NCBI GenBank assembly: GCA_944327245.1
Contig: CALVHD010000016.1
Location: 1 to 39,990 of the forward strand
Direction of reading: 5' to 3'
From: Candidatus Gastranaerophilales bacterium
Lineage (GTDB): Bacteria > Cyanobacteriota > Vampirovibrionia > Gastranaerophilales > Gastranaerophilaceae
DNA length: 39,990 nucleotides
The position numbers were made by a program, and so were the translations under genes. The notes below the pieces were generated by a model, which ran no database searches, was not told the origin of the DNA, and saw nothing but the letters and a program-made list of their open reading frames with translations. Below, one piece after another: positions 7,386 through 10,350 of the stretch; position 1 is the stretch's first letter; each line of letters opens with the position of its first letter.

Positions 7386-7958
7386 CTACATAGACTTCAC
7401 TTGCTTATATTTTGCTCTCATTTCTTGCAACTTTTCATCATTTTGAAGAATTAATCTTTGAACTTCTGACACATCATCAGCGGCAGGAACAAATTCTGTA
7501 TATTTTTTATAGTTATCATTTGCTTTTTGCAGATAATCAATAAACTTCAGACCCATCTTTAAATTTTCAACAGGATCAGAATAAGTAATTTCTTCAATTT
7601 CGCCATCTTCGTTTGTTTTCTCAAATATATTGTGTGCAGCGCAATCATAAGCTACACCCAATGTATAATTAATTGCCGGTTCATTTTTTATTAATTTATT
7701 TGCAGCCTCTGCTTGCTGAATTGCTTTTTCGCACTCATTTACTCTAACATATGCAACAGCAAGATTATATCTTGATTCATATACATCAGGGTCTAAATCA
7801 ATAGAAGACTCCAACCTTGAAATTGCACTTTTTGCATCGCCATCATCAAGATATTTTGCAGCAATTTCATTTAATTCTTGAACAGCAAGAGTATGTATAC
7901 AAGCACTTGTTGACATAGCAAAAAATAAAAGTGTTACAAAAGCCAATAATTTTCTCAT
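7386..7958 (-). CDS. TPR-containing lipoprotein
   Basis: A protein of 190 residues. Residues 1-19 are a lipoprotein signal (MRKL, a hydrophobic core, then STSAC with the modified cysteine at 20). The -3 position is threonine rather than the usual leucine, so the lipobox is acceptable but not ideal. Residues 26-100 form two to three TPR motifs (for example KYLDDGDAKSAISRLESS followed by YNLAVAYVR), then a variable acidic stretch and a C-terminal helix rich in charge. TPR lipoproteins of this type assist outer-membrane or pilus assembly in other bacteria, but the sequence does not say which partner it has here. It is transcribed together with lgt. The ribosome binding site is weak. Confidence 0.85.
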   Translation of the reverse strand: MRKLLAFVTLLFFAMSTSACIHTLAVQELNEIAAKYLDDGDAKSAISRLESSIDLDPDVYESRYNLAVAYVRVNECEKAIQQAEAANKLIKNEPAINYTLGVAYDCAAHNIFEKTNEDGEIEEITYSDPVENLKMGLKFIDYLQKANDNYKKYTEFVPAADDVSEVQRLILQNDEKLQEMRAKYKQVKSM

Positions 7959-8074: not shown

Positions 8075-8869
8075 ATGGAAAAAGACGGTTTATTAATACT
8101 GGAATATCAAGAAAATTTTGCTGACAATCTATCAATGTATGCATATGGCAAAATTTTAGAAAAGAATCAAAAAAGAAAATGTTTTTATGAAAATAATACG
8201 CCTAAAAGAGTTAAATTTGAAAAAGCAATGTCTAATTTTAACCTCGATTATGGCTATATTTCAACAAACAAAGTAAATACAATCGCAAAAAATGCACTAT
8301 ACTATAATAAAATAATAATAAACGACAAAAAAATATCCTATGAAATTAAAAATAATAAATCAAATTCAAACAAAATATTAAATTTAAAACACTTTAAAAT
8401 AGACGACATTCAATATATTACCGAGGATATACTCAAATCTTTAGAGTTTAACAATTATAATTTCATAAAAAACTTCGATTTACTTGAAGAAATTTCAACA
8501 AATAATTCAATAGGCTTATATATAAACAATAACGACATAACCAGTCAAAAAGTGGATTGGGATTATATATCAAGAGCAATTTTAAGATTAAATAAATACA
8601 TTAAAAAACCAATTTTATACGTATTTACATCTAAAAATATAGAAAAAAATATCAACTCAATCATACCATTAAAATTTATAGATTTGAAAGACTGGAAAGA
8701 AGAATTTTATTTTTTAGCCACTTGCAAACATAAAATTTTAATCAATTCACCATCTTCATATTCAACAAATTTCTGGGCAATTATGCTAAACAACAAAGAT
8801 TACTACCTAAAAACTTTTGATAAAAAATTAAAGGTAAAAAACAAACCAAAAGATTGGATTGCGCTATAG
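8075..8869 (+). CDS. GT11-like glycosyltransferase homologue with degraded donor motif
   Basis: A protein of 264 residues that follows the plan of family GT11 alpha-1,2-fucosyltransferases. NLSMYAYGKILEK (18-30) matches 'NQxFQYAxGxxLA', KPILYVFTSKNIE (178-190) matches the 'xxFYIFSDD' strand, and EEFYFLATCKHKILINSPSSYS (209-230) matches 'EDLxLMSxCKHxIxANSSFSWW', followed by AIMLN for 'AWLN'. The GDP-fucose signature HxRRGD, expected at 149-154, is instead YINNND: only the aspartate remains and both arginines are lost. The N-terminal GGLGNQ loop is also changed (LEYQENFADN). Fucosyltransferase activity therefore seems unlikely; it may use another donor or be inactive. It is very rich in Lys, Asn and Ile. 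The stop abuts the stop of the convergent GerMN gene with no gap. Confidence 0.65.
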   Translation: MEKDGLLILEYQENFADNLSMYAYGKILEKNQKRKCFYENNTPKRVKFEKAMSNFNLDYGYISTNKVNTIAKNALYYNKIIINDKKISYEIKNNKSNSNKILNLKHFKIDDIQYITEDILKSLEFNNYNFIKNFDLLEEISTNNSIGLYINNNDITSQKVDWDYISRAILRLNKYIKKPILYVFTSKNIEKNINSIIPLKFIDLKDWKEEFYFLATCKHKILINSPSSYSTNFWAIMLNNKDYYLKTFDKKLKVKNKPKDWIAL

Positions 8870-9502
8870 CTAGTCAAGTGGCTGCTTTATGTAAACACCA
8901 TCTCCGCCAAGATATTCAACCTGCTGCCCATCAATATAAAGATAAACGTTTTTATTAGGTTCATATAGTTTAATTGTCTTAGATAATTGCAAAACACGAT
9001 TTTCGATGCTTTGTGTTCCGCCGCCGTTACCAAAATTTGATGAAAGATTTACTATAATATTTTTTCCTTGATTTTTAACAGAAATTAAGTCTACATTAGG
9101 AGGAATTTCAGAATAATATCCATTCTTAGTTTCAGAAATAATAGGACCTCTCAACAAGATATTGACTGCCTTATTTAGAGTAATTTGTTCATTATATTTA
9201 CGTTTAACAACATCTAATTTACCGCTTTTATTAAAAAAATAAACTTTTGAATAATATACGGCGTTATTTGTTTTTTGTACATTTTGTTTATTTTCATTAT
9301 TCTTAGGTGTTTGCATTTCTTGTGGTTCAATTGGCACATTAACATTCTGATTTTCGGCCTTGGTACTATGAAGCCCAAAAATCGGATTATTTGACGAAAG
9401 TTTAAGCCCGCTATAGCTGTCTGTTGAAACATATTGATAAAACAAAAATCCCAAAGCAGCAATCAAGCAAATAATAAAAGTTTTGAAAAAAGTATTCATC
9501 AT
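8870..9502 (-). CDS. Membrane-anchored GerMN-domain protein
   Basis: A protein of 210 residues. Residues 5-25 form an N-terminal membrane anchor, 26-80 a polar Asn/Gln/Pro-rich linker, and 84-205 a GerMN domain: VYFFNKSGKLDVVKRK, AVNILLRGP, a PPNVDLISV strand, then IIVNLSSNF, and ENRVLQLSKTI with VYLYIDGQQVE and the final LGGDG. GerMN is known from spore germination protein GerM and from envelope proteins of many non-sporulating bacteria, where it probably binds something in the periplasm or cell wall. No other sporulation gene is present. The first ATG overlaps the truB stop by one base and has AAGGA 7 bases upstream, so it is the last gene of the infB-rbfA-truB operon. A second ATG directly after it is equally possible. 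Confidence 0.85.
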   Translation of the reverse strand: MMNTFFKTFIICLIAALGFLFYQYVSTDSYSGLKLSSNNPIFGLHSTKAENQNVNVPIEPQEMQTPKNNENKQNVQKTNNAVYYSKVYFFNKSGKLDVVKRKYNEQITLNKAVNILLRGPIISETKNGYYSEIPPNVDLISVKNQGKNIIVNLSSNFGNGGGTQSIENRVLQLSKTIKLYEPNKNVYLYIDGQQVEYLGGDGVYIKQPLD

Positions 9503-10350
9503 TAAATATCCTTAAAAATCTTCTTAGGCTTAATTAAATTATCTGACAAAACGGCAATTGATACAAGTTTGTTATTTTTTGTTAAAAGAATTTTTTCACT
9601 GCATATATTACCTATATTATTACTTATAAAATTTCCATGGATAATTTTTTCATATTCATAATCACTGAGCTCATATTTGGCAAATTCAAGTACATCAATT
9701 GGATTAATACAAACATAATTTTCATCATCAAGATTATTTGCCTTTTCATACAAAAAACTGCCTGCCTTTGTTCTTTTTAATTCGGTTAAGTATGCACCAC
9801 AAGACAATTTTTGACCCAAATCATTTGCAAAAGAACGTATATATGTGCCTTTTTTGCAATTGATTTTTAATTTAACTTCATCAAATCCGTTAAAATTAAG
9901 CAATTCAATTGAATAAATTTCAACTTCACGCCCAAAATCCTCTATATTAAAATCAACATTGCTTCGGGCTAAATCACATAATTTTTTGCCATTATATTTT
10001 ATAGCAGAATATTTTGGAGGAAGCTGAATAGTTTTACCCAAAAAAGAATTTAAAGAACTCTTTAAATAATTTAATGAAAATTCAGGCTTTTTAACAAATA
10101 TTTTATCTCCTTCATCATCAAAAGTAGTTGTAATATACCCAAACTTCAAATTTGCAATATACTCTTTATCAGATGGTAAAAATTCTAATAGTTTTGTTGC
10201 TGACCCAACGCCAATTTGCATCACACCTGACGCCAGAGGATCAAGAGTACCCGAATGACCAATTTGGCGAATTTTCAATCTTTTTCTTAAATATCTGATA
10301 ACGTCAAATGAAGTTATTCCTTTTGGCTTAATAATATTCAAAAAATACAT
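9502..10350 (-). CDS. truB: tRNA pseudouridine(55) synthase
   Basis: Makes pseudouridine at position 55 in the T-loop of nearly all tRNAs. The N-terminus (LNIIKPKGITSFDVIRYLR) and the catalytic motif GHSGTLDPLASGVM with nucleophile Asp37 are classical, followed by the KEYIANLKFGYITTTFDDEG segment, PPKYSAIKYNGKKL and the KGTYIRSFANDLG motif. At 282 residues it is of normal size with a short PUA-like C-terminal region. The ATG directly follows the rbfA stop with no gap and the gene's own stop overlaps the next start, so translation is coupled along the operon. Confidence 0.97.
   Translation of the reverse strand: MYFLNIIKPKGITSFDVIRYLRKRLKIRQIGHSGTLDPLASGVMQIGVGSATKLLEFLPSDKEYIANLKFGYITTTFDDEGDKIFVKKPEFSLNYLKSSLNSFLGKTIQLPPKYSAIKYNGKKLCDLARSNVDFNIEDFGREVEIYSIELLNFNGFDEVKLKINCKKGTYIRSFANDLGQKLSCGAYLTELKRTKAGSFLYEKANNLDDENYVCINPIDVLEFAKYELSDYEYEKIIHGNFISNNIGNICSEKILLTKNNKLVSIAVLSDNLIKPKKIFKDI

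Follow-up and report, generated by a model that had tools for sequence, protein, structure and literature searches.

What becomes of a fucosyltransferase fold when the residues expected at its donor site are replaced? The question is raised by a gene in a contig of a Candidatus Gastranaerophilales bacterium (genome G000, 97% complete), of which we analyzed a stretch of 39,990 nucleotides, called the window below. A first-pass annotation of the window had recognized the frame of a family GT11 fucosyltransferase in which the HxRRGD motif for GDP-fucose reads YxNNND, and had left three options: a new donor, a binding protein, or a decaying gene.

Gene organization and distribution

The open reading frame begins with ATG and encodes 264 amino acids without an internal stop (Table 1). 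Its neighbors in the window are the housekeeping genes gpmI, lgt, truB, rbfA, and infB, and it does not lie in a glycan cluster there. The stop codons of the GT11-like gene and of the convergent germane-domain gene are directly adjacent (8869/8870). Meeting or nearly meeting 3' ends of these two genes recur both in the genus of the window genome and in its sister genus, g37, and the germane gene marks the position of the GT11-like gene (the slot) in both. A promoter scan gave promoter-like sites at the chance level (9 vs 7.9), and a terminator scan gave one terminator-like site, within the GT11-like gene. Elsewhere in the window, an ORF at 574-1533 has an OLD-like TOPRIM domain (Pfam, E 1.9e-11).

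Table 1. Features of the locus in window coordinates, with the evidence for each
Feature	Position	Strand	Evidence
GT11-derived protein, donor motifs lost	8075..8869	+	ORF, GT11 profile, hhalign, model, fold matches
TPR-repeat protein, divergent left neighbor	7386..7958	-	Pfam
Germane-domain protein, convergent, 3' end abuts the GT11-derived gene	8870..9502	-	Pfam PF10646, synteny
truB, member of the conserved block germane-truB-rbfA-infB	9502..10350	-	Pfam, synteny
Residues 10-18, EYQENFADN, where GT11 has its donor loop GGxGNQ; a loop newly conserved in the genus	8102..8128	+	Alignment
Residues 149-154, YINNND, aligned with HxRRGD; Asn151 takes the position of the essential Arg	8519..8536	+	Alignment
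Residues 171-179, RLNKYIKKP, highest conservation among the tested loops of the genus family	8585..8611	+	Loop conservation
Residues 184-187, FTSK, aligned with FSDD of GT11	8624..8635	+	Alignment
Residues 224-235, NSPSSYSTNFWA, corresponding to GT11 motif III (NSSFSWWAA), with four residues inserted; Ser228 retained	8744..8779	+	Alignment

Among the 58 genomes examined, 23 of the 28 from the genus carry the gene, and outside the genus there is one weak match, in G042 (E 3.1e-4). Every carrier has the gene beside germane-truB, and in 22 of the 23 it is flanked on its left by the divergent TPR gene. In G026 the TPR gene is missing and the GT11-like gene is kept. A profile of the family, searched against 386 genomes drawn non-exhaustively from the phylum, exceeded 100 bits only in the genus, and the best matches outside it were those of g37 (up to 83.7 bits). 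Likewise, in 288 genomes drawn non-exhaustively from the taxonomic family, scores above 100 bits were confined to the genus. Relatives were also sought in viral contigs, where 150 pattern matches were obtained and tblastn confirmed none of them. Literature searches on glycosyltransferases or fucosyltransferases of the Gastranaerophilales and Melainabacteria, on inactive fucosyltransferases, including GT11 proteins and their HxRRGD motif, and on glycosyltransferase pseudoenzymes and scaffolds turned up nothing on this protein, as judged by titles and the beginnings of abstracts.

Relationship to family GT11

That the GT11 frame can be followed through the protein, as the first-pass annotation had it, was upheld by profile and profile-profile comparison as well as by the predicted fold described below. 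Scored with a GT11 profile of the order, the window protein reached 42.7 bits (E 9e-13), members of the genus 15-53 bits, and the highest-scoring unrelated ORF at the same loci 4.5 bits (E 0.37). This profile was built from 20 GT11 proteins, including the G121 slot copy. Its 20 loci are those with the string R.GD; eight loci without the string and one locus of a genus member were left out of it, and the left-out loci that were found to be GT11 were scored with the profile and used in the alignment, the tree, and the column counts. Comparison of the family and GT11 alignments with hhalign gave 99.2%. The alignment with GT11 spans nearly the whole length of the window protein, with KHKILINSPSSYSTNFWAIMLN aligned at GT11 KHNIIANSSFSWWAAWLN. 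By these sequence comparisons, the kinship with GT11 is beyond chance.

The match to the order-level GT11 profile was not repeated in Pfam, which had no match on the window protein. Three of the 23 family members touch PF01531 at E <=0.1 (best 1.3e-5), and seven touch the unrelated HECW_N (best 0.0011), which gives the level of chance matches in such a scan. No family member in the 28 genus genomes reached the PF01531 cut-off, the nearest being that of G015 (23.6 bits vs 23.9). NCBIfam gave weak chance matches only, and a search of solved structures by sequence gave one chance match (E 0.43) and neither VldE nor the NDH subunit discussed below.

The GT11 proteins of the order are themselves varied. 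Some have RRTDY or RVxxDY instead of RRGDY, and at L046, L047, L053, and L054 the GT11 domain lies within an ORF of 558-609 aa, fused to another stretch.

Predicted structure

The AlphaFold model of the window protein, made with a 23-row alignment, has a pLDDT of 91.3 and a pTM of 0.90. In a second-look structure alignment the best solved fold was NodZ (Z 12.9, rmsd 4.9, 232 residues aligned), followed by POFUT1 (Z 12.1, rmsd 6.1, 232 aligned), AtFUT1 (Z 11.3, rmsd 4.8, 243 aligned), FUT8 (Z 10.8, rmsd 5.2, 222 aligned), and POFUT2 (Z 10.2, rmsd 5.8, 243 aligned); the next group drops to 8.0. A plain Foldseek search placed the heptosyltransferase WaaC (7.9e-5) level with NodZ and POFUT1, with modest TM-scores. 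As a control, a model of a GT11 protein from the g37 slot (pLDDT 93.9) was matched best by the same groups, NodZ scoring Z 13.8 (rmsd 4.0, 225 residues aligned). The GT-B fold of the alpha-1,2/1,6/O-fucosyltransferase group is present in the predicted structure, so the GT11-type fold on which the original reading depended is found in the model.

Changes in the donor site

In the window protein, GGxGNQ reads E13-N14-F15-A16-D17-N18, and HxRRGD reads Y149-I150-N151-N152-N153-D154. The first-pass annotation had both right: the N-terminal donor loop is changed, and four of the five named positions of HxRRGD are changed with only Asp154 kept. The Asn and Gln of GNQ and the first Arg of HxRRGD occur in 41/41 GT11 rows and in 0/23 genus members. 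Of these 41 rows, 27 were collected by a Pfam search in which the motif itself carries weight, a source of bias; the other 14, of the slot type, were found with the genus profile instead (the copies of G204 and G121 by both routes) and keep the first Arg in all cases. At the Arg position the genus family has Asn in 17 members, Asp in four, and Ser in two, and a basic residue in none. Asp154 is invariant. The genus-wide form of the motif is SIG[LIV][YF][ILV][NDS]xxD, with one V for I. The changed motif is thus common to all the carriers found, and YxNNND is the spelling of the window copy alone. A lone mutant or a sequencing error was ruled out, the change being common to 23 genomes; the relatives that keep the Arg belong to the sister genus and occupy the same slot.

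The losses extend beyond these two motifs. Of the 45 columns conserved in >=85% of GT11 rows, 13 still have the GT11 residue in half or more of the family, and the other 32 have lost it in most members. In the GYWQSEKYF element, every member has gaps at three conserved columns, and the SDD, D210, P249, and W252 columns are changed. At the place of FSDD, an Asp at 186 is found in 6/23. Retained GT11 residues are Asp154, Ser228, Ile221, and Phe184 (23/23 each) and His219 (22/23). In motif III, where the placing of the 4-residue insertion varies with the alignment, Asn224 is kept in 18/23 and the GT11 Trp at 229 has become Tyr in 22/23. The family also has a residue set of its own. There are 22 invariant columns across the 23 sequences, which go down to 35% identity to the window protein, and residues invariant here and not in GT11 include Y11, N40, R45, E49, S63, R171, N173, K174, and Y175. 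Of the five invariant residues of the RLNKYIKKP loop, the first four are not conserved in the GT11 rows, and the fifth, P179, mostly is.

The loss of the donor motifs is meaningful because published mutants of related enzymes lose activity. In WbsJ, a GT11 enzyme, the first Arg of HxRRxD is reported to be critical (PMC4202792), FUT8 with Arg365 changed to Ala is inactive (PMC7033129), and CePOFUT1 R240A loses both GDP binding and activity, while Asn43 of the same enzyme is critical for activity and N43A still binds GDP (PMC3180450). The equivalence of these residues with the GT11 positions follows published statements and motif reading rather than structure superposition.

Seventeen loops were compared for conservation within the family. 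The protein as a whole averages 2.80 bits; RLNKYIKKP reaches 3.93 bits and the former donor loop 3.65. Taken as a set, the presumed cleft-side loops are not above the rest (191/263 shifted sets as high), nor are the far-side loops (177/263). A conserved cleft as proof of a ligand site was rejected for the set by this shifted-set test, though single loops are conserved. The former donor loop would face the old cleft, and RLNKYIKKP would lie at the opposite end of the C-terminal domain; that the latter points away from the cleft we infer, since the sides were assigned by strand order and not from model coordinates. Neither set of loops being specially conserved, the loop test does not separate a new donor from a scaffold.

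The protein could still be a glycosyltransferase with another donor or acceptor, its donor loop and pyrophosphate contacts having been rebuilt from YQxNFADN, SYS, and Asp154. The loop at the old donor position ranks with the most conserved of those compared, the old site still has Ser228, Asp154, and Asn224 in all or most members, and the long stem of the family in the gene tree, followed by strong constraint, would fit a new specificity. The complete replacement of the essential Arg by residues that are not basic, the gaps in GYWQSEKYF, the changed SDD, D210, P249, and W252 columns, and a place among housekeeping genes rather than in a glycan cluster in the window all speak against it, and we regard it as a tentative reading.

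The same slot in the sister genus

Ten g37 genomes (G121, G179, G189, G247, G268, G273, G284, G297, G302, and G307) have a GT11 gene beside germane-truB in the same orientation. The slot was looked at in these ten of the 14 g37 genomes; the other four, G253, G260, G278, and G291, have a GT11 elsewhere. All ten slot copies exceed the PF01531 cut-off (96.7-116.5 bits) and have a G-x-GNQ loop and [NS][LI]RLGDY, in which the His of the motif has become Asn or Ser. In G121, G268, G273, and G307, the 3' ends of GT11 and germane touch or share a few bases, the block continues to rbfA-infB, and the left-hand neighbors of the slot differ from those in the window genus. A pilin-like gene occupies the place beside germane in G029, of genus g3.

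In a gene tree of 64 rows, the genus family was monophyletic (100/100), its stem measuring 2.28 changes per site, and was joined to 14 slot-type rows with support of 81/73; four of these rows (G204, G216, G219, and G238) are not known to lie in the slot. Two slot-type relatives from other genera, L092:1459-2298 (G216) and L094:1501-2340 (G238), have NLRLCEY, with both the Gly and the Asp of HxRRGD changed and the Arg kept. Neither is beside germane, and at least that of G238 adjoins genes that by eye are GT2-like.

The slot genes of the two genera are likely, but not proven, to be orthologues by position, because they share the slot, the slot-type rows are nearest in the tree, and a constraint uniting the family with the ten g37 slot genes alone was not rejected (p-AU 0.16). 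Since an ordinary GT11 occupies the g37 slot, the loss of the donor site probably took place at a single locus between the two genera, a pairing that the gene tree supports weakly. The observed arrangement could also have been caused by two separate entries of GT11-type genes into the same place. The best gene tree, which does not unite the family with the g37 slot genes alone, and the differing left neighbors are in keeping with two entries. Against them are the right-hand neighbor, orientation, and meeting 3' ends common to both genera, the p-AU value just given, and a truB+germane tree in which the two genera are sisters, weakly (94/42). We consider two entries unlikely.

Supply of GDP-fucose

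Most carriers in the genus lack recognized GDP-fucose synthesis. The gmd gene (TIGR01472) exceeded the cut-off in 7/28, made up of 4/23 carriers and 3/5 non-carriers, and in 12/14 of the g37 genomes searched. The window genome has no gmd over the cut-off, with distant relatives up to 67.6 bits, and no match to the fucose pyrophosphorylase of the salvage route (PF07959); G024 has a gmd relative below the cut-off at 195 bits. PF07959 was found in 0/28 genus genomes, compared with matches in 5/14 control genomes, one of them over the cut-off. A proper GT11 over the cut-off is found in one of the 28 genus genomes (G011, on another contig) vs 14/14 in g37. From the gmd and PF07959 counts, the gene persists mostly without a recognized GDP-fucose source, a supply that a GT11 enzyme needs for its work but that does not define the family.

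These counts bear on whether the protein might still transfer fucose from GDP-fucose, the motif positions having been mis-assigned or the changes compensated. Such an enzyme would agree with the GT11-derived fold and with the presence of gmd in four carriers. It would have to work with the donor Arg and the loop Asn and Gln gone in all 23 members, in a genus where 19/23 carriers have no gmd over the cut-off and the pyrophosphorylase was found in none of the 28 genomes, and mutants of the equivalent Arg are inactive in the cited studies. We therefore think surviving GDP-fucose transfer very improbable.

Absences and selection

Five genomes of the genus lack the gene. In G007, G008, G010, and G027, the neighborhood is in place and the gene is absent, from which it follows that the gene is dispensable. 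These four absences are scattered on the truB+germane tree, where they need four changes, two of them forced by well-supported branches, and so are most simply losses. The G008 slot (L128:5658-7108) has neither the GT11-like gene nor the TPR gene, and lgt lies directly against germane there. The absence from G017 (87% complete) is uninformative because germane and truB are also undetected there.

Where the gene is present, it is under purifying selection after the loss of the donor residues. In 11 close pairs, drawn from 13 genomes picked for closeness, omega of the GT11-like gene is 0.05-0.14, with 0.09-0.23 for truB, 0.07-0.17 for germane, and 0.08-0.24 for the TPR gene in the same pairs and 0.14-0.26 for lgt in 10 of the 11, all values being approximate because dS is near saturation in many pairs and the ORFs were read stop to stop. 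In every pair, dN of the GT11-like gene is no greater than that of truB, and the 11 pairs gave no sign of relaxed selection. That the gene is the decaying remnant of a fucosyltransferase gene, to which the four absences in preserved neighborhoods could point, is hardly credible given no stop inside the gene in any of the 23 carriers, these omega and dN values, and the 22 invariant columns. Decay thus drops out of the three original options, and the suggestion in the first-pass annotation that the gene still has a use is borne out by its conservation across the genus and by the omega values. A new donor and a binding protein are both left, with the evidence leaning to a loss of fucosyl transfer.

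Proposed history and function

Because the donor residues are gone in every carrier found while selection is strong, the protein has probably turned into something other than a fucosyltransferase. As read from the alignments, catalytic residues have been lost throughout a conserved clade, which is one mark of a pseudoenzyme. The history that we propose begins with a GT11 fucosyltransferase gene that would have stood beside germane-truB in the common ancestor of the genus and its sister genus. In the sister genus the gene would have stayed an ordinary GT11. On the stem of the window genus, the protein would have lost the GNQ loop, the HxRRGD Arg, SDD, and a large part of GYWQSEKYF, while the GT-B frame was retained and a new residue set became fixed.

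The role that we favor, with moderate confidence, is that of a non-catalytic binding or scaffold protein. Its catalysis would be gone, it would be cytosolic, and its conserved patches, the YQxNFADN loop and RLNKYxKxP, would bind something. Several points count against this explanation: the gene tree and the left-hand neighbors support the pairing with g37 poorly, the retention of Ser228 and Asp154 is as compatible with a surviving ligand site as with a scaffold, neither set of loops is specially conserved, the gene is dispensable, and four carriers have gmd, with a relative below the cut-off in G024. More speculatively, a fucosyltransferase may have been rebuilt in place within one genus, giving a GT-fold protein that senses or transfers a ligand or donor other than GDP-fucose; the old donor loop would then have turned into the conserved YQxNFADN, and the pyrophosphate clamp built on Arg would have been replaced. 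If it was rebuilt in place, an ancestor-like ordinary form still stands at the same locus in the sister genus.

Comparison with known systems

The GT11 alpha-1,2-fucosyltransferases (PF01531; WbsJ, FutC, FUT1/FUT2) have the same order of elements as the genus family and, judging by the profile and the model, the same GT-B fold. The core of motif III (KHxI, N, S, W) and the Asp of HxRRGD are mostly or wholly kept in the genus family. Unlike GT11, the genus family lacks the first Arg of HxRRGD, the GNQ loop, SDD, and much of GYWQSEKYF, falls below the Pfam cut-off, and in 19/23 carriers occurs without recognized GDP-fucose synthesis.

NodZ and FUT8 belong to GT23, POFUT1 to GT65, and AtFUT1 to GT37. 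They are the closest solved folds (Z 10.8-12.9), at about 8-14% identity to the window protein. NodZ and AtFUT1 keep the donor Arg and are active fucosyltransferases. The same is reported of FUT8 (PMC7033129) and POFUT1 (PMC3180450), unlike the genus family. Farther off are the pseudo-glycosyltransferase VldE and a plant NDH-PSI subunit, which offer a lead that the GT-B frame can be reused, with Z of 7.5-7.9, a range under 8 that may reflect a common arrangement only. The entries 7wff_a, 9grx_1, and 7f9o_6 (plant NDH-PSI complex subunit) give these values with the window model and 9.3-9.5 with the GT11 control, and the match is possibly one to a reused GT-B fold, as far as the models go.

A further comparison is with the g37 slot GT11 (G121 and nine others), which has the same right-hand neighbors and orientation and lies in the nearest group of the tree. 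It differs from the genus family in keeping GGxGNQ and RLGDY and in exceeding the Pfam cut-off. The fold alone should not be used to label GT11-like genes of gut Gastranaerophilales as fucosyltransferases. The two genera probably hold a before-and-after pair at one locus, a GT11 that keeps its donor site and a descendant that has lost it, and since the descendant is under strong selection, the loss or change of a donor in a glycosyltransferase fold can be tested with two small proteins.
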